Below, in pieces: positions 1-7,166 of a stretch of DNA of 64,000 nucleotides. The notes under the pieces were generated by a model. It was given only the letters and a program-made list of their open reading frames with translations, searched no databases and had not been told where the DNA came from. Both the position numbers and the translations under genes were made by a program. Origin of the DNA: Salinivibrio kushneri (GTDB lineage: Bacteria; Pseudomonadota; Gammaproteobacteria; Enterobacterales; Vibrionaceae); assembly GCF_005280275.1 (NCBI RefSeq), contig NZ_CP040021.1, positions 831,001 through 895,000 on the forward strand, written 5' to 3'. Position 1 is the stretch's first letter, and each line of letters starts with the position of its first letter.

Positions 1-842
1 TGGTGGGCAAAAACGGTGAGCGTTATCAGCTCCCCACCGATGAAGCCGAACGTGATGAAGCCGATGAGGCTTTGCGCCGCGAGCTTAACTTCACCTGGCG
101 CGAAACCTTGCCATCACACAATGAGGTGATTGCCGGAGACTGGCCAACCGAGAATGGTGTATCAGTGGAGGCCGACATTGCCGAGCGCTTGGAGATTGAG
201 ATTGGCGACAGCCTGACCTTTAGCGTGACCGGCCAAGACTTTACCGCCACGGTGAACTCGATTCGTGAAGTAGAGTGGCGCAATATGCGGCCTAACTTCT
301 ATTTTATTTTCGACCGCGAGACGCTCGCCGACAAACCCGCCAACTGGCTGGTGAGCTTCAGGCTCGATGAATCGCAAACGCCCTTGCTCAATCGCTTGGC
401 GCGGGAGTATCCGACAGTCACGCTGCTTGATTTGCGCACCATGAGCAGCCGTATTCAGTCGATTTTGCGTCAAATTGGCTTGTCGCTTTCGGTGTTGGCG
501 GGGCTGGCGGTGATCAGCGGCCTGTTACTGCTGCTCACCTTGCTGCGTATTAGCTTGAGCGAGCGTCAGCAGGAGATAAACCTCTATCGCACCTTGGGCG
601 CGAGCCGCACTCGTATTCAGCGTACCTTATGGAGCGAGTACGGTGTGATGGCCTTGGTGTCTGGCCTTATGGCGGTACTCGGCGCAGAAGCGGCGATGGT
701 TGGCTTGCTTAAGTGGGGCTTTGAAATGGAGGTACGCCTGCACCCAGAGCTTTGGGCGGTGTTGCCGGTGTTGGCGGTGGCGCTGGTGTTTGTCACGGTG
801 GCCTCGATGCTGCGTAAACTGATTGATCCGCAACGGCGTTAA
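1..842 (+). CDS. ABC transporter permease, YbbP-like, C-terminal part (5' cut by window edge)
   Basis: The reading frame is open from the first base, so the gene starts outside the window; about 280 residues remain of a family usually near 800. The visible part holds a periplasmic domain (about residues 1-150) and then the C-terminal FtsX-type permease domain with three hydrophobic segments. Between the first two segments is the conserved cytoplasmic stretch ERQQEINLYRTLGASRTRI, which in this family contacts the ATPase. By family this is the membrane subunit of a YbbA/YbbP-type exporter of unclear substrate; the ATPase would lie upstream. It ends in a TAA followed by a shared terminator. The YbbP assignment is by resemblance of the C-terminal domain only. 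Confidence 0.75.
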   Translation, partial: VGKNGERYQLPTDEAERDEADEALRRELNFTWRETLPSHNEVIAGDWPTENGVSVEADIAERLEIEIGDSLTFSVTGQDFTATVNSIREVEWRNMRPNFYFIFDRETLADKPANWLVSFRLDESQTPLLNRLAREYPTVTLLDLRTMSSRIQSILRQIGLSLSVLAGLAVISGLLLLLTLLRISLSERQQEINLYRTLGASRTRIQRTLWSEYGVMALVSGLMAVLGAEAAMVGLLKWGFEMEVRLHPELWAVLPVLAVALVFVTVASMLRKLIDPQRR

Positions 843-876
843 CCGGGGCGGTAAGCATCCTTGTTTCACGCATAAC

Positions 877-912
877 AAAGCGGGTATCAAGAAAGTTGAT
901 ACCCGCTTTTTT
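877..912. terminator. Bidirectional intrinsic terminator
   Basis: Perfect inverted repeat with 14-base arms (877-890 and 896-909), a 5-base loop, an A-run on one side and a T-run on the other. It lies between the converging ybbP-like gene and yfcH and can serve both. Confidence 0.85.
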
Positions 913-971
913 GTATACAACGTCTAGCAAAATCCGGCTAATAACACCGCTTGTGCGAAAGACAAAAGCCG

Positions 972-1868
972 CTACTTAAACAAAGACTGCATCGCTTCTT
1001 CCACCTTGGGGTGCTGGAAATTAAAGCCCGCGTCCTCCAACGCATGGGGTAGGGCGCGCTGGCTATCGAGCAGCAAGTGCGAGGCTTCCCCCATCATGGT
1101 TTTAATCGCCAGAGTAGGGACAAAGAACACGTGTGGGCGTTTTAAAGCACGGGCAAGCGCCTGACTAAAACGTTTATTGGTGACCGGCTCTGGCGCGGTG
1201 CAGTTAAACGGCCCTTTAAGCTCAGGGGTATTGAGCAGGTGGATAATCGCGCCGACCATATCATCAATATGGATCCACGGCATGTATTGCTGGCCTTTAC
1301 CAATGGGGCCGCCAAGGCCAAGTTTATACGGCAGCATCATCCGTTTGAGCGCGCCACCTTCAGCGCTTAACACCACGCCGGTGCGCAGCAAGCACACCCG
1401 CGTCTGTTGCGAGGCACCTTTCAAGGCAATTTTTTCCCATTGATGACACACATGCTGGGCAAAATCATCGGCATGAACCACCAAGGTTTCGTCAAAGCTG
1501 CGATCTTGCTGATCGCCGTAATATCCTACTGCCGAGCCGCTGATAAAGGTGTGAGGTGGGGTGCTGCTGGCATGGATTTTCTCGACCAGCTTTTCCGTTA
1601 ATCCCCAGCGACTGGTGCAGATGATGCCTTTTTGTTGCTCACTCCAGCGTTTATCGGCAATCGGCTCGCCCGCCAGATTGATAACCGCATCAATATCATT
1701 CAGGTGAGGGAGGTCATCAAGGCGCTCTAACGGCGTGACTTTATCGCCAAAGCACTGGGTGACCTTTTGCTTCGAGCGCGATAACACAGTGACCTGATGC
1801 TCGGTCAGCAAGCGAGGAATTAACGCCTGACCAATCAGGCCAGTGCCGCCAGTGATTAACAGTTTCAT
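972..1868 (-). CDS. yfcH: YfcH-like SDR-family nucleotide-sugar epimerase homologue (TIGR01777)
   Basis: This 298-residue protein opens with a Rossmann dinucleotide-binding signature, GGTGLIGQAL (residues 7-16), and carries the SGSAVGYYG stretch typical of the TIGR01777 family. The last ~50 residues match the DUF1731 C-terminal module (PHALEDAGF...). The length fits E. coli YfcH (about 297). It is presumably cytosolic and NAD(P)-binding; the substrate is not known. The ATG at 1868 has an AGGA about 8 bases upstream. It is transcribed alone, divergent from the DUF1538 operon and convergent with the ybbP-like gene. Confidence 0.85.
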   Translation of the reverse strand: MKLLITGGTGLIGQALIPRLLTEHQVTVLSRSKQKVTQCFGDKVTPLERLDDLPHLNDIDAVINLAGEPIADKRWSEQQKGIICTSRWGLTEKLVEKIHASSTPPHTFISGSAVGYYGDQQDRSFDETLVVHADDFAQHVCHQWEKIALKGASQQTRVCLLRTGVVLSAEGGALKRMMLPYKLGLGGPIGKGQQYMPWIHIDDMVGAIIHLLNTPELKGPFNCTAPEPVTNKRFSQALARALKRPHVFFVPTLAIKTMMGEASHLLLDSQRALPHALEDAGFNFQHPKVEEAMQSLFK

Positions 1869-2094
1869 GCCTGATGTCCTAACGTCGAGTAATGGGTGAT
1901 ATAGATAACGCTAAGAGGGTTTTAGACTTAGCGCAAGTGATTGCTTTGTATCCTGTTACGTACCGCAACCAAAATCGGTTTGATCGCGCAGTTTTCTCCT
2001 CTGCCCCTCGCACGCCAAATTGGGAGTGCTAACATAAATATGCGCATAAAAAGTGTGCTTTTCATTTTACTACGCAGGGAGTCATGTCGCCTAC

Positions 2095-2820
2095 ATGCAA
2101 GCGTTATTCAAATCATTGCTAGGAAGCTTTCGCGATCTCTTACCCATCATCCTAGTGATCGGCTTTTTTCAAGTGATTGTCCTGCAACAACCGCTGCCCA
2201 ACTGGATTTCGATTACCTTTGGCTTGGTGCTGGTGGTCGTGGGGCTGACCTTATTTGTATACGGCTTAGACATGGGGCTATTCCCGATTGGCGAATCCAT
2301 GGCACATTCGCTGGCACACAAAGGCAGTTTAGGGTGGTTAATTGCGTTCGCGTTTTTGCTCGGTTTTGGCACCACTATTGCGGAACCCGCACTTACCGCG
2401 GTGGCGGCGGAAGCGGCAGATGTCGCCGCTAACGGCGGGATGATAAACACCACAGAGGCAGCCAAAGATAGCTACGCCAATGGGCTGCGGCTAACCGTGG
2501 CGCTTTCGGTCGGTTTTGCGATTGTGCTGGGGGTGGTGCGAATTATGAAAGGCTGGCCGATCCACCGTTTAATCATTGGCGGCTATTTGTTGGTGGTGGC
2601 AATGACCATGGTCGCACCGCCCAGCATTATCGGCATTGCCTATGACTCGGGTGGGGTGACCACCTCGACCATCACGGTGCCATTGGTGACCGCGCTTGGC
2701 GTGGGGCTGGCGACCGTGATCAAAGGGCGTAACCCCATGGTGGATGGCTTTGGCTTGATTGCCTTTGCCTCGCTATCGCCGATGATCTTCGTGATGGCCT
2801 ACGGCATGGTGGTGGCATGA
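2095..2820 (+). CDS. DUF1538 membrane protein, first of a pair
   Basis: About 241 residues with roughly six hydrophobic segments. It recognisably belongs to DUF1538, a family of integral membrane proteins without an assigned substrate. Signature stretches are [15 protein letters not shown] and [20 protein letters not shown]; both recur in the next gene, so the two proteins are paralogous halves. I chose the ATG at 2095 (protein starts MQALFKSLL). An in-frame GTG at 2053 would add 14 poorly hydrophobic residues, and a GGAG lies 13 bases before 2095, so the start is uncertain. It overlaps the next gene by 4 bases (ATGA), indicating translational coupling. Transport of a small solute is inferred from topology and from the PII-like partner. 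Confidence 0.8.
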
Positions 2821-3599
2821 ACAATCCACTCACTCTGTTTCTCGACACCTTTTTCTCCACCGTGCGCGATGTGATCCCGATTATCGCGATCATCTTTGGC
2901 TTTCAGCTGTTTGTATTGCGCAAAGCGCTCAACAACCCCAAACGGATCTTTCTCGGCTTTTTCTATGTGATCTTGGGCTTGAGCCTGTTTTTAATGGGGC
3001 TGGAGCTGGCGCTATTCCCGCTGGGATCGTCGATGGCCGAGCAGCTGACCGCTCCCGATTTTGTCGGCGCAGCGCTCAAAGCCGGCGGCGAGATTAATTG
3101 GCAAGCCTACTACTGGGTGTATCTGTTTGCCGCGGCGATTGGCTTTAGCACCACAGTGGCTGAGCCCTCGTTAATTGCGGTGGCAATCAAAGCAGCCAAG
3201 GTTTCGGGCGGGGCGATCCGGGTGAATGGGTTGCGCGCCTCGGTGGCGCTCGGGGTGGCAATGGGGATTGCCTTGGGGTGCTATCGCATTGTGGTGGGCG
3301 ATCCGCTCCATTATTACATCATCACCGGCTATGTGGTGGTGGTGATCCAAACCTATTTTGCTCCGCCGTTTATCGTGCCTTTGGCCTATGATTCTGGAGG
3401 GGTGACCACCTCAACCGTGACCGTGCCTTTGGTGACGGCGCTCGGGCTGGGGCTAGCCTCTACCGTACCGGGAAGAAACCCGATGCTTGATGGTTTTGGC
3501 TTAATTGCGTTTGCTAGTTTGTTTCCGATGATCACCGTGATGGGTTATGCCCAAATCACAGCCTATTTACAGAAAAAGCACGCACAGCGTTCATCGTAA
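2817..3599 (+). CDS. DUF1538 membrane protein, second of a pair
   Basis: A 260-residue DUF1538 protein with hydrophobic segments spread over its length. It repeats the two signatures of its upstream partner: [21 protein letters not shown] and [20 protein letters not shown], followed in both by a [16 protein letters not shown] block. In some genomes DUF1538 occurs as a two-domain protein, so the split pair probably forms one heterodimeric membrane unit (inference). The ATG overlaps the preceding stop. The stop at 3599 is followed by a good GGAGA site for the PII-like gene. Confidence 0.82.
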
Positions 3600-3608
3600 G
3601 GAGAGCCT

Positions 3609-3959
3609 ATGCGGTTCAAATTAATCATGGCGTTTATTGAAGATGCCAAAACCGATGCGGTGCTCGATGCCGCCAGACAAGCCGGCGCTACCGGCGCGAC
3701 CATTATTAACAATGCGCGTGGCGAAGGCTTGGTGAAAAAGAAAACCTTTTTAGGGCTGACGCTGGATGTGCAGCGGGACGTAGCCATCTTCCTAGTGGAA
3801 GAGCACTTAGCGCGCACCATACTTGAAACCATTAATGATGTAGGCGAGTTCGATGCCACCTCCGGCAGTGGTATCGCGGTGCAAATTGATGTGGAAGATG
3901 CCGTGGGCGTGGCCCACCAAATGCGAGAATTAACCGAAGTGGTGAAGGACGAGTTATGA
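3609..3959 (+). CDS. PII-like signalling protein linked to DUF1538 transporter
   Basis: A 116-residue protein with the size and beta-alpha-beta ferredoxin-like pattern of PII proteins: MRFKLIMAFIEDAKTDAVLD, then a GATGATIINNARGEG turn, and a second half ending in an IDVEDAVGV strand. It lacks the canonical uridylylated Tyr of the T-loop, and the T-loop region is short. PII and PII-like proteins (GlnK, SbtB) form trimers that bind adenine nucleotides and gate membrane transporters; the operon position suggests this one controls the DUF1538 pair (inference). The start has GGAGA 5 bases upstream. It overlaps the CBS gene by 4 bases. Confidence 0.8.
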   Translation: MRFKLIMAFIEDAKTDAVLDAARQAGATGATIINNARGEGLVKKKTFLGLTLDVQRDVAIFLVEEHLARTILETINDVGEFDATSGSGIAVQIDVEDAVGVAHQMRELTEVVKDEL

Positions 3960-4378
3960 AACAACATAAAACGGTAAGAGATGTGATGCATGCCCATGCC
4001 GTGTGTATTGATGGGCTCACCACAGTCGAAGAAGCGATCCGCATTGCACGCCAAGAAGATGTCAAAGCACTGATTATTAATAAACGCGATGATGGCGACG
4101 AGTTCGGCCTGGTGTTAATGAACGACATTGCCAAAAAAGTGCTCGCCAAAAACCGCGCACCATCACGGGTGAATGTTTATGAGGTTATGACCAAACCCGC
4201 GCTTAGCGTCTCCCCCGATATGAATGTGAAATACTGCGCCCGTTTATTCGAACGCTTCGGCATCAGCCGCGCCCCCGTAATCGAAAACGGCCAAGTCCTT
4301 GGCATGGTCAGTTATAACCTGATCGTGATCTACGGCATGCTCGCCGAAGAAGTGGATAGTCAGCATAGGAAGGATTAG
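3956..4378 (+). CDS. Two-CBS-domain regulatory protein
   Basis: A 140-residue protein made almost entirely of one Bateman module. CBS1 covers about residues 5-62 (TVRDVMHAHAVCIDGLTTVE) and CBS2 about residues 70-127 (VYEVMTKPALSVSPDMNVKY, ending ENGQVLGMVSYNLIV). CBS pairs bind AMP, ATP or SAM. Placed last in the DUF1538 operon with an ATGA overlap to the PII-like gene, it gives the system two separate nucleotide-sensing subunits. No transmembrane segment or enzymatic domain is present. Confidence 0.85.
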   Translation: MKQHKTVRDVMHAHAVCIDGLTTVEEAIRIARQEDVKALIINKRDDGDEFGLVLMNDIAKKVLAKNRAPSRVNVYEVMTKPALSVSPDMNVKYCARLFERFGISRAPVIENGQVLGMVSYNLIVIYGMLAEEVDSQHRKD

Positions 4379-4509
4379 GGTAGGTGTCACTGTGATTTTT
4401 AAGGGAGTAGGGGCTAGCTCATTTATGCCCCAAAGCGTCTCAGCCGAGGCATTATGATGGCGCGGTTAAGTCGTTTATATCCTAACATTGGTAATGTGAC
4501 GTACTTTGA

Positions 4510-4547
4510 GTAACTAAATTGCTTGTCCGCTTCCGGTAACTAAATTG
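4510..4547. repeat. Pair of 12-bp direct repeats upstream of the DUF4238 gene
   Basis: GTAACTAAATTG occurs at 4510-4521 and again at 4536-4547, period 26. This is 50-90 bases before the GTG of the next gene, so a tandem operator or promoter-proximal repeat is possible. The rest of 4380-4599 shows nothing I can name. Confidence 0.5.
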
Positions 4548-4599
4548 TTGCGATACGCTACCCATATGTATGAAGATGCTTTGATATGATGGCGATAGA

Positions 4600-6975
4600 G
4601 TGACTAAAACAAGAGATAACCATTTTGTGCCGCAATGGCACCAAAAAGGCTTTATGGATGAGCGAGATAATCAGCTTTGCCACTTAATGCGCCGAGACAT
4701 TGACCTGAAGAATGGTGAAACCAAAACGGTCTATTCCAAGAAATGGCAAACTTCCGCTCAACGTTTCTATAAAAAAGATCTCTATTCAACATTTTTGGGA
4801 ACAGAAGTTAATGATGAGATCGAACAAAAACTCTTTGGTCCTATTGATGACAATGGCTGTAGAGCTATTCGTGCATTCCTAACTGACGACCAATCTCAAT
4901 GGCATCAGAATTTTCAGAATCTATTCATTTATCTTGATGCTCAAAAGCTAAGAACACCAAAAGGTTTAGACTGGGTTCAGAGTAAATACCCAGATCTAAC
5001 TCAGCTACAACTCATGATGGAAATGCAATCTCTGCGGTCTATGCACTGTACTTTTTGGGCTGAAGGTGTACGGGAACTAGTATCTGCTGAGAATTCTGAC
5101 GTTAAGTTTATAGTGTCAGACCATCCAGTGACAATTTACAACTATGCCTGCTCTCCAGATTCTGAGTTGTGTGGATACCCTAGTGATCCTGATATCTCCT
5201 TAAAGGGGTCGCAAACCATATTCCCTTTAGATAAGAATCGATGTTTGATTCTGACGAACCTTGAATATGCTCAGGACCCAGATAACGCAAATCCGCTTCA
5301 GCAACGAACCAATGCCACCCGTATTCGTCAAAGCATGGTCAACACCATTGAGTTTATCAACTCTCGTAAATTAACCTCGGACGAAGTGAGAAAAATTAAC
5401 TACGTTATTAAAAGTAGAGCTCAATCATCAGTTGCAGCAGGCAAAGAGGAATGGCTATACCCTGAAAATGATTTAACTTGTGATTGGGCTGATATAAGGC
5501 ACGTCCTGTTGCCTCCTTCTGGTGAACTGCACAGATATGGTGGTGAAATGTTTGCCAAGTTTGAAGATGGCTCCGTGCACTATCAGGATGCATTTGGCCG
5601 GATTACACCTCCAAATGATTACCTGAACAAGAATATCGACGAAGCTCAGATTGGTAGAAATTCCCTTTGTGGTTGTGGCCGAAAGTACAAGAATTGTTGT
5701 CGTAACGTTCCTGTAGACCTGCGCGCTACTTGGGATGTCGCAAGTATTCGTGAGCGAAATCTAGCATTTTGCAACTGTATTCGTAATGTTCTTGGTTTAG
5801 ATAGCGGTAAAACATGGTTGGATGTCAGGCGCGAACTATCTGACGATCAGATATCCAAAATCTACGGTTTCTATTCATCCTTGTGGCCTCGTGAAACTGA
5901 TATTTACTCGCTGCTGCCCAAGCCCGATGGAAAGTTTAGAGGGCTGTATACAGGCCCAGTAGACGTGCGGGTGATTGGTGCTCATGCATTACCGTTGGCG
6001 TCTGTATTTGACGAATTTTTGATAGAATCACCAATAACCAACTCTAACAATATCAGGCCAGAGTTTAGCCCTAAACAATCACCAAGTAAGTATAAATATC
6101 AAGCATTAAAGGACTTCCTATTCATGCTTGAGATAGAGCCGTTTATTGGGCTTGGCCTAGTTAACCTTATTCCCAATCCAAGCGAATTTGATCTCAGTCT
6201 AATGAGAGCCATGATGGACATGGCTAGGGATCGGGCTCGCCCAGACGAGATAATCTGCGAGCAAGATCGGCGGCTATACCTTCGTCTTTCAACTGAAGAC
6301 TTGCTAAATTCAATGGCGATGATGCCTAGAGGCGCGAAAATCCAAGTACTAGTGCATCAGTTTGGGTTAACTGAAGAAATGGCAACAGATAGCATTTCAA
6401 AATTAGAACGCTATGCAGAGGCTTCACCACTGATGATGTTGCAACAGATGAATGCTGGAGAAGGCGGGCAGTTCATGCAGTTTAGAATGGGGCCAAATTA
6501 TGAAATGGCACTGTTTGTTGCACAGGTAACAGGTTCAGTAATAATCACAGACAGTAATTCGAGATGGCGAGAATTAGTTTCAGCACAACACAGGGAGCAG
6601 GGAATAATAAACTATCCATGGAATGATGCTTTGAGTCAATTAAGCTCAATTCCTATCGATTACCAGTTCCTAGAAACGTTGCAGAAATCTCAACGTCACT
6701 TCTCTATAGCCAGAAATCTTATACAGACGGCAGATCGTATGGTCTTGGGCGACGATCGTGATGTAGCTAAATTGACTCGATTAGCTGGTCAGGCTAGAGA
6801 GCTTGTTGACCAACTCGGACAAGTTAACGATCAGTTAGTGACCAGCTCATTCAAAGTACTCAGCCCAGAGGGTGGATTCTATGACAGTAATGTTCAACGG
6901 TTATTGGCTCAGTCTAGATGTCTGAGATATGACAATCGAGTCAGGTCGATTTACGGTATTGGTCTTCCAGAATAA
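4600..6975 (+). CDS. DUF4238 / SEC-C domain protein, accessory, function unknown
   Basis: A 791-residue cytosolic protein. The N-terminus NHFVPQWHQKGF (residues 6-17) matches the opening of DUF4238, which runs to about residue 280 and includes a conserved SDHPV stretch. At about residues 350-368 there is a SEC-C zinc-binding motif (GRNSLCGCGRKYKNCC). The remaining ~420 residues resemble no family I recognise and are rich in predicted helix. Codon use is more AT-rich than the flanking genes and it stands alone, consistent with horizontal acquisition. The GTG at 4600 is the only plausible start nearby; two ATGs just before it are in other frames and hit a stop. The ribosome site is weak. DUF4238 proteins have no settled biochemical role. 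Confidence 0.75.
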   Translation: MTKTRDNHFVPQWHQKGFMDERDNQLCHLMRRDIDLKNGETKTVYSKKWQTSAQRFYKKDLYSTFLGTEVNDEIEQKLFGPIDDNGCRAIRAFLTDDQSQWHQNFQNLFIYLDAQKLRTPKGLDWVQSKYPDLTQLQLMMEMQSLRSMHCTFWAEGVRELVSAENSDVKFIVSDHPVTIYNYACSPDSELCGYPSDPDISLKGSQTIFPLDKNRCLILTNLEYAQDPDNANPLQQRTNATRIRQSMVNTIEFINSRKLTSDEVRKINYVIKSRAQSSVAAGKEEWLYPENDLTCDWADIRHVLLPPSGELHRYGGEMFAKFEDGSVHYQDAFGRITPPNDYLNKNIDEAQIGRNSLCGCGRKYKNCCRNVPVDLRATWDVASIRERNLAFCNCIRNVLGLDSGKTWLDVRRELSDDQISKIYGFYSSLWPRETDIYSLLPKPDGKFRGLYTGPVDVRVIGAHALPLASVFDEFLIESPITNSNNIRPEFSPKQSPSKYKYQALKDFLFMLEIEPFIGLGLVNLIPNPSEFDLSLMRAMMDMARDRARPDEIICEQDRRLYLRLSTEDLLNSMAMMPRGAKIQVLVHQFGLTEEMATDSISKLERYAEASPLMMLQQMNAGEGGQFMQFRMGPNYEMALFVAQVTGSVIITDSNSRWRELVSAQHREQGIINYPWNDALSQLSSIPIDYQFLETLQKSQRHFSIARNLIQTADRMVLGDDRDVAKLTRLAGQARELVDQLGQVNDQLVTSSFKVLSPEGGFYDSNVQRLLAQSRCLRYDNRVRSIYGIGLPE

Positions 6976-7166
6976 ACCATATTAAGAGCCGACAGCTAGT
7001 TCGGGTAAGTACAGAACTATACCACCTATGCTAGACACGCCTTTAGGAGACTTTCCATACCTAAATTAATTCATAATTTGCTAAATTAGCAAGACCGTCT
7101 AAACAGTTTTGTTCATTTATAAGCTAAAGTCTCAATGGCTTACCCTCTAGCGCCACTCCACCAAGC

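Follow-up and report, generated by a model that had tools for sequence, protein, structure and literature searches.

Which ion is carried by a pair of DUF1538 membrane proteins, and why are a PII-like protein and a CBS-pair protein encoded beside them? The question is raised by four plus-strand genes at positions 2095–4378 of a 64,000-nucleotide stretch of Salinivibrio kushneri (NZ_CP040021.1, 831,001–895,000; hereafter the window). Two ATGA overlaps of 4 bases each (2817–2820 and 3956–3959) and a 9-base gap (3600–3608) join the genes, exactly as laid out in a preliminary description of this DNA made from the sequence alone. In the sets examined, the PII-like gene was a near-constant partner of DUF1538, and this linkage is real. 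We consider it rather likely that the operon encodes a Na+(Li+,K+)/H+ antiporter with UmpA and UmpB as its antiparallel halves, gated at its cytoplasmic face by the PII-like protein and receiving a second input through the CBS protein. The genes and motifs concerned were as follows (aa, amino acids; AF2, AlphaFold 2).

2095–2820, plus strand: umpA-like gene (DUF1538-A), 241 aa, predicted N-terminus in and C-terminus out (Pfam, NCBIfam, segment charges).
2371–2388, plus strand: TTIAEP motif of UmpA, residues 93–98 (invariant alignment columns T112, T113, A115, E116 and P117).
2644–2670, plus strand: DSGGVTTST motif of UmpA, residues 184–192 (conserved in the DUF1538 alignment).
2817–3599, plus strand: umpB-like gene (DUF1538-B), 260 aa, predicted N-terminus out and C-terminus in (Pfam, NCBIfam, AF2, segment charges).
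3150–3167, plus strand: TTVAEP motif of UmpB, residues 112–117, at a helix break between helices 95–114 and 117–129 (invariant columns, AF2 model).
3390–3416, plus strand: DSGGVTTST motif of UmpB, residues 192–200, at a helix break between helices 184–196 and 202–216 (conserved columns, AF2 model).
3609–3959, plus strand: PII-like protein, 116 aa, ferredoxin-like PII fold with non-canonical ligand residues (Pfam P-II, Foldseek, VIA-align).
3723–3776, plus strand: T-loop region of the PII-like protein, residues 39–56, with KKKTFLGL, the proposed transporter contact (conservation; putative function).
3956–4378, plus strand: CBS-pair (Bateman module) protein, 140 aa (two CBS domains in Pfam).

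The linkage was followed in several gene-neighbourhood surveys, whose counts are inflated by kinship among the loci. In the nearest-relative set, the best 80 of 355 contig loci and all near relatives, a PII-like gene was counted if it lay within 400 bases of DUF1538; this was so in 79 of 80 loci, and a CBS gene was also present in 78. The two exceptions (L059 and L080) sit at contig ends. Across the Pseudomonadota, DUF1538 was detected in 126 of 398 genomes (43 of 213 genera). A phylum set (L121–L200) of 80 loci from 79 of these positive genomes was taken from the best-scoring matches listed, leaving out the Vibrionaceae and some others that were not retrieved. The PII-like gene was adjacent in 77 of these loci and a CBS gene in 52. 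The three loci without an adjacent PII-like gene (L149, L187 and L189) belong to genomes that carry PII-like genes elsewhere (G121, G093 and G084). CBS was missing in 28 loci, and the PII-like gene was kept in 25 of them, two of which (L151 and L169) are cut off by contig ends, with 214 and 2 bases left beyond the PII gene.

The same association was seen genome-wide. Both DUF1538 and a PII-like protein were found in 121 Pseudomonadota genomes, DUF1538 only in 5, a PII-like protein only in 12 and neither in 260, so that a PII-like protein occurred in 121 of the 126 DUF1538 genomes vs 12 of the 272 others. Within the Gammaproteobacteria, UmpA was matched in 126 of 369 genomes (99 of 272 genera). 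A class set (L261–L300) was drawn from the matches listed and covered 40 of the 126 positive genomes (36 families by the tool's assignment). There the PII-like gene followed A-B in 40 of 40, CBS came next in 39, and A and B were fused in six; at one locus (L268) 1.4 kb separate UmpB from the PII gene. The genome nearest to the NCBIfam UmpA model (G691, 422.7 bits) had the complete gene set. On plasmid records (6 opened of 8 matching), a PII-like gene stood beside DUF1538 in all six loci, four of them clostridial, and CBS in none. Chance clustering was ruled out by the nearest-relative, phylum, genome-wide and class surveys, and DUF1538 genes were not found mostly without PII-like or CBS neighbours, the outcome by which the preliminary description was to be judged. 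Its coupling of a PII-like gene with the membrane genes was borne out; CBS is usual and not universal, is sometimes replaced by a second PII, and in other architectures no second sensor was seen.

Several architectures departed from the one in the window. Fused A-B (open frame of 504–574 aa) followed by PII and CBS was found in L123, L129, L154, L172, L179 and the six class loci. In the four clostridial plasmid-record loci, fused A-B (499–529 aa) was followed by a PII open frame of 223–231 aa, with two PII profile matches in L117 and L118 and one in L119 and L120; Pfam recognised two P-II stretches in L118. A longer fused A-B (567–642 aa) occurred with a PII-like gene in 21 of the 23 loci L218–L240, the others being L227 (377 aa) and L234 (split). 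In 10 of these 23, a further downstream gene was weakly similar to the PII-like family (17–37 bits); three such genes were submitted to Pfam, of which one matched P-II (25.7 bits, cut-off 25) and two had no family. Locus L154 contained two transporters, one PII each and a single CBS gene. Our reading is that the PII-like partner is the rule and that many systems, though not all, add a further sensor of the CBS or PII kind. In a converse test, 40 loci were opened at PII-like matches; L218–L240 belong to this test as weak matches to the window's PII subtype, all in DUF1538-positive genomes, and so cover part of the converse; at each of these 23 loci DUF1538 and the PII-like gene were immediate neighbours. 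Five genomes with two transporter subtypes (G010, G101, G113, G136 and G188) showed divergent PII pairing with divergent transporter.

Two side observations concern these loci. Tandem DUF1538 systems of differing subtypes, each with its own PII-like gene, lie side by side at L200:1995–6526 and in L154. Where CBS is missing in L177, an OmpR-type response regulator gene (Pfam) lies close after PII (3917–4588), and open reading frames after PII in L143, L181, L186, L191 and L196 resemble it by eye.

The membrane pair was matched by Pfam DUF1538 (PF07556) with E 2e-69 (233.5 bits) for UmpA and E 1.6e-66 (224.0 bits) for UmpB, the gathering score being 22.6; the 211 profile positions were covered from 1 to 211 and from 1 to 210, respectively. 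The NCBIfam models of the pair (NF041627/NF041628) matched over nearly the full length, UmpA with E 1.1e-111 and 371.9 bits (equivalog cut-off 490) and UmpB with E 6.8e-102 and 340.2 bits (equivalog cut-off 500). About half of the residues are identical between the two proteins (49%, UmpA as query against UmpB), and TTxAEP and DSGGVTTST are common to both. With the ATGA overlap, this places them among the paired, overlapping and homologous DUF1538 genes of the UmpAB type.

The UmpAB pair of Halomonas zhaodongensis, found through a salt-rescue screen in E. coli, was reported in 2017 to form a cytoplasmic-membrane heterodimer in that host with Na+(Li+,K+)/H+ antiport at pH 6.5–9.5; antiport of Na+, Li+ and K+ was measured in everted membrane vesicles, and UmpA or UmpB by itself functioned poorly (PMC5484666). 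The comparison set of that study includes two Vibrio species. The Halomonas and window pairs are alike in their adjacent, overlapping DUF1538 genes (by 1 base in Halomonas), seven helices being predicted for each Halomonas protein, and further in the longer hydrophilic C-terminus of UmpB and in the conserved residues that both proteins share (three R, two D and one E; PMC5484666). The window proteins are thus, by sequence, homologues of a known Na+(Li+,K+)/H+ antiporter, with the activity shown for the Halomonas pair. The Halomonas study and the NCBIfam models named for UmpA and UmpB rule out an undescribed transporter, as which the operon had been put forward, and the antiport of Na+, Li+ and K+ by these homologues replaces the earlier statement that no substrate could be named. 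A search of the available text of that paper for PII, P-II and CBS returned no occurrence.

Opposite insertion of UmpA and UmpB is predicted from their charges. Net charge was determined in eight segments (N-terminus, six loops and C-terminus) and combined into an alternating score per sequence; the test left out domains that were <210 aa or contained stops, as well as loci L083–L114 and L201–L300. In the window, the segment charges were +1, 0, +1, −2, +3, 0, +1 and 0 for UmpA (score +8) and −1, +4, −2, +4, 0, 0, 0 and +3 for UmpB (score −14). The score was >0 in 164 of 167 first members (the UmpA slot) and <0 in 166 of 166 second members (the UmpB slot), counts again inflated by kinship. Two of the three exceptions (L185 and L045) are UmpB-type proteins that were misfiled, and the third (L118) scores 0. 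Less affected by kinship was a test on group means, in which each mean was the most extreme among 70 balanced assignments and the signs were opposite. The mean net charge of UmpA-type sequences was positive at the N-terminus and loops 2, 4 and 6, and that of UmpB-type sequences at loops 1, 3 and 5 and the C-terminus, and weakly at loop 4. Frames labelled as fused followed the same pattern (first halves >0 in 9 of 10, second halves <0 in 12 of 12), the label meaning an open frame >450 aa and including L054 and L189, which are probably not fusions. In nine fused A-B chains, 18–28 aa separate the two DUF1538 domain matches.

The odd helix number, the opposite charge bias and fusion linkers that leave scant space for a further helix fit an antiparallel inverted-repeat transporter. 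UmpA and UmpB are therefore predicted to insert oppositely, forming an antiparallel 7+7-helix dimer. In known antiparallel pairs (DUF606 and others), the halves are likewise homologous and opposite in charge bias, and are encoded by paired genes or as a fused chain (PMC3962082); UmpAB differs in having seven helices per half, and DUF1538 goes unmentioned in the available text of that paper. Both hallmarks of dual-topology pairs, opposite bias of homologous halves and fused forms, were thus present, with loop 4 as the weak point. The view that the two proteins are halves of one transporter, already taken in the preliminary description, was supported by the single-chain A-B fusions. The discussion in PMC5484666, as far as available, proposes no antiparallel insertion. 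Opposite topology would fit the poor function of the lone Halomonas proteins (PMC5484666). It also offers a structural model for the DUF1538 family, whose profile had no match among solved sequences up to E 5.

The AF2 model of UmpB had a mean predicted local distance difference test score (pLDDT) of 91.5, with helices broken inside TTVAEP and VTTST. Against solved structures, the best Foldseek match had E 1.0, and the best VIA-align match (Z 5.5) was a soluble chain. VIA-align Z-scores against the MgtE membrane domain were 4.7–5.3 over 104–114 residues, a middling likeness that was not used as evidence. The UmpB half-fold is possibly new, although the model searched was one half of the proposed dimer and an absent match is no proof.

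The PII-like protein was matched by Pfam P-II with E 9.5e-10 (39.2 bits, cut-off 25), and its sequence profile reached solved PII proteins at E 0.22 at best. Its AF2 model (pLDDT 80.5) showed the ferredoxin-like fold of the PII superfamily. The best Foldseek rows were GlnK/CPII, with SbtB also among them (E about 1e-5), and VIA-align superposed M. tuberculosis PII (3lf0_C) with Z 12.4 over 93 residues and a root-mean-square deviation of 2.5. The model is a monomer; a trimer is inferred from the family. Aligned to GlnB and GlnK of the same genome, the PII-like protein had a T-loop shorter by 5 residues, KKKTFLGL lay near their ELYRGAEY and there was no Tyr at the GlnB position, as had been noted before for the uridylylation site. 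The protein therefore lacks what we take to be the marks of a canonical GlnB/GlnK, Tyr51 and the ATP-phosphate ligands K90, R101 and R103 (GlnB numbering). Ordinary GlnB/GlnK identity was ruled out, since GRQKGHTELYRG T-loops occur in two other proteins encoded by the genome. The 116-aa sequence contains no Cys and hence no SbtB-type CGPxGC C-terminal motif. Among 30 PII-like sequences, one of which (L044) looks frame-shifted at its start, R37-G38-E39-G40, F47, G49, E64, H66 and others were invariant, and T46 and L50 nearly so; R37, E39, F47 and E64 of the DUF1538-linked proteins are not found in the aligned GlnB and GlnK. The conservation of the KTFxGL T-loop is what would be expected of a fixed docking partner.

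The adenylate-ligand motif of CBS domains is G-h-h-[ST]-x-x-D. Pfam found two CBS stretches in the 140-aa protein (E 2.5e-18). Its nearest solved sequence was the cyanobacterial CBS-CP12 (PDB 5nmu; E 3.1e-22), to which the CBS pair aligned gap-free over 118 residues; CBS-CP12 is longer (208 aa), and its first-domain Thr and second-domain Asp are both Leu in the window. Among 128 relatives, the Asp of the first-domain motif was present in 115, and Leu or Val stood in place of T/S there in 104; in the second domain, 112 had S/T and 77 had Asp. Most relatives thus have a degraded ligand motif in their first CBS domain, and the window protein has one in its second.

For the window operon, interaction, transport and gating are inferred from homology, gene linkage, charge pattern, fusions and the PII fold. 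UmpA and UmpB, inserted oppositely, would make one 14-helix inverted-repeat transporter, in which the invariant acidic residues and the helices broken at TTxAEP and DSGGVTTST may form the cation/proton site. The PII-like trimer would dock on the cytoplasmic face through its conserved short T-loop (KKTFxGL) and throttle transport, as is proposed by likeness to GlnK on AmtB and SbtB on SbtA (PMC8352866, PMC10710835). A second, perhaps adenylate, signal would come from the CBS pair, a role that in some relatives would fall to an additional PII domain or PII-like protein. In this way the operon would link Na+/pH homeostasis with cellular metabolism.

The likeness to GlnK-AmtB consists in a small PII gene beside a transporter gene, an arrangement that the genome itself shows by eye in a GlnK-like gene followed by an AmtB-like start. 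The DUF1538 transporter is unrelated to AmtB, and the window PII-like protein has no equivalents of Tyr51, K90, R101 and R103 and has the shorter T-loop. With SbtB-SbtA, the operon shares the joint encoding of a PII-like protein and a transporter, and SbtB was among the Foldseek matches. The SbtB T-loop enters the inter-domain cleft of SbtA, and a CGPxGC redox motif is conserved in some SbtB homologues (PMC8352866); the window protein lacks this motif, its operon has CBS as a second sensor, and the structure searches with UmpB established no relation to SbtA. PII-NG genes are clustered with the CzcABC metal/proton antiporter in Geobacter (GSU2134–2137), likewise a PII-superfamily gene with a proton/cation antiporter operon (PMC7726332). 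That system differs in that CzcABC exports divalent metals and that a CBS partner goes unmentioned in the available text. PII-transporter pairs, PII-NG beside CzcABC and UmpAB were already known; the opposite charge alternation of UmpA and UmpB, their single-chain fusions and the non-canonical residues of the PII-like protein are new. No paper on a PII-DUF1538 link was found in the open-licence literature, a scope that leaves most subscription journals outside.

If the proposed gating is true, PII signalling extends to monovalent-ion and pH homeostasis. Action of the PII-like protein on a Na+(Li+,K+)/H+ antiporter would explain why the gene set stays together in many bacteria, and the recurrence of the grouping in very different bacteria suggests a pump switched by the state of the cell. 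More tentatively, at a little short of an even chance, we propose a widespread class of PII-gated monovalent-cation antiporters. Its members would be antiparallel or fused 7+7-helix Na+/H+ exchangers whose half-fold has no clear solved match, with a non-canonical PII and an interchangeable second sensor (CBS pair or second PII), through which metabolic status would directly set Na+/pH homeostasis.

Several observations weigh against the gated-antiporter reading. Both window proteins score below the NCBIfam equivalog cut-offs, and that for UmpA was passed by 0 of the 369 Gammaproteobacteria genomes; the substrate identity therefore depends on moderate homology. Neither a PII-like nor a CBS gene is listed for the Halomonas fragment by which E. 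coli was rescued (PMC5484666), and these genes are therefore dispensable for basic antiport activity. In the charge test, segment limits were fixed after the window sequence and model had been seen; loop 4 carries positive charge in UmpA and, to a lesser degree, in UmpB, and UmpA has a neutral C-terminus. The basic residues at the K90, R101 and R103 positions are replaced in the PII-like protein in the alignment with GlnB and GlnK, so nucleotide binding is not to be assumed; the window CBS protein has Leu for T/S in its first motif and Leu for Asp in its second. Finally, there is a branch of the PII-like family in L201–L217 with no DUF1538 beside the PII gene, 17 loci picked because no adjacent DUF1538 was listed. 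The T-loop motif is common to PII-like genes without adjoining DUF1538, which weakens the case for docking. In one of the 17 loci (L208), about 3.5 kb separate the PII gene from a DUF1538 fragment, and L214, L215 and L216 have an intact PII-like and CBS pair. Of the 12 PII-only genomes, the four opened (G022, G117, G129 and G181) had no DUF1538 beside PII; the other 8 were unopened.

The best-surviving alternative, which we still regard as unlikely, is a transporter of the UmpAB kind with another physiological substrate (bicarbonate, ammonium or a Na+-coupled organic ion), whose metabolism the PII-like protein would sense, with the antiport in E. coli KNabc as a side activity. The Halomonas pair did come from a salt-rescue screen in E. 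coli, a setting compatible with such a side activity, and the same pair was assayed for Na+, Li+ and K+ antiport in everted vesicles, which argues for these ions (PMC5484666). For the reviewed PII-regulated transporters AmtB, Amt1, NrtABCD, UrtABCDE and SbtA, the cargo is either bicarbonate or a nitrogen compound such as ammonium, nitrate or urea (PMC10710835), bicarbonate-linked CPII and SbtB are among the folds near the PII-like model, and the window pair misses the equivalog cut-offs; all three points would suit another substrate. In contrast, DUF1538 is among the 20 most informative genes of a bacterial growth-pH predictor, beside the Mrp, Kdp and Trk families (PMC13255231).

Near-constant adjacency over two phyla, in fused and split architectures, is the pattern that a dedicated partnership gives, and PII subtype tracks transporter subtype within the five genomes opened at two subtypes. 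Both points speak against a second alternative, less probable again, in which the targets of the PII-like and CBS proteins lie elsewhere (enzymes or transcription) and the two proteins never touch the transporter but share its operon through a salt or pH stress response. PII proteins have many soluble targets, as this alternative would have it. It would also account for the PII-like branch away from DUF1538, for example L205 near SH3-domain and argB-like genes, and for the PII-CBS pair without adjoining DUF1538 in L214–L216. For PII-NG beside CzcABC, metal sensing and regulation, not gating, have been proposed (PMC7726332).

It is very improbable that the PII-like protein is an enzyme making or removing a signal for the CBS protein as the actual gate: the PII fold does include SAM (S-adenosylmethionine) and SAM-AMP lyases (PMC12255297), and the invariants R37, E39, F47 and E64 are not in GlnB/GlnK, but no catalytic site was identified in the PII-like protein, and of the 28 phylum loci (among 80) that lack CBS, 25 still have the PII-like gene.

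The closest named genomes to the operon were those of Salinivibrio; in S. siamensis, UmpB was listed as 100% identical and the CBS protein as 92%. Upstream, an NAD-dependent epimerase gene lies on the opposite strand (972–1868), and downstream lies a DUF4238 gene; neither looks to belong to the operon. The downstream gene (4600–6975) encodes a 791-aa protein with an N-terminal DUF4238 match and no Pfam family over the remainder. A riboswitch was sought upstream because a Na+ or Li+ riboswitch would name the transported ion; at the gathering score, Rfam gave no family in window positions 1–7000 nor in 9 relatives, and a scan of 18 divergent loci gave two tRNAs and nothing else. Promoter-like sites (2 vs 3.1 expected) and terminator-like sites (6 vs 3.5 expected, standard deviation 2.0) were not used as evidence.

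A minor observation concerns the PII-like branch without DUF1538. At L205:3847–6018, the neighbours of the PII-like gene include an SH3-domain gene and one for an amino-acid kinase resembling argB (Pfam). An argB-like open reading frame was seen near PII by eye in L202, L203, L208, L210, L211 and L213, and other neighbours in L206 and L207. PII control of acetylglutamate kinase is known elsewhere, which makes these argB-like neighbours a lead.

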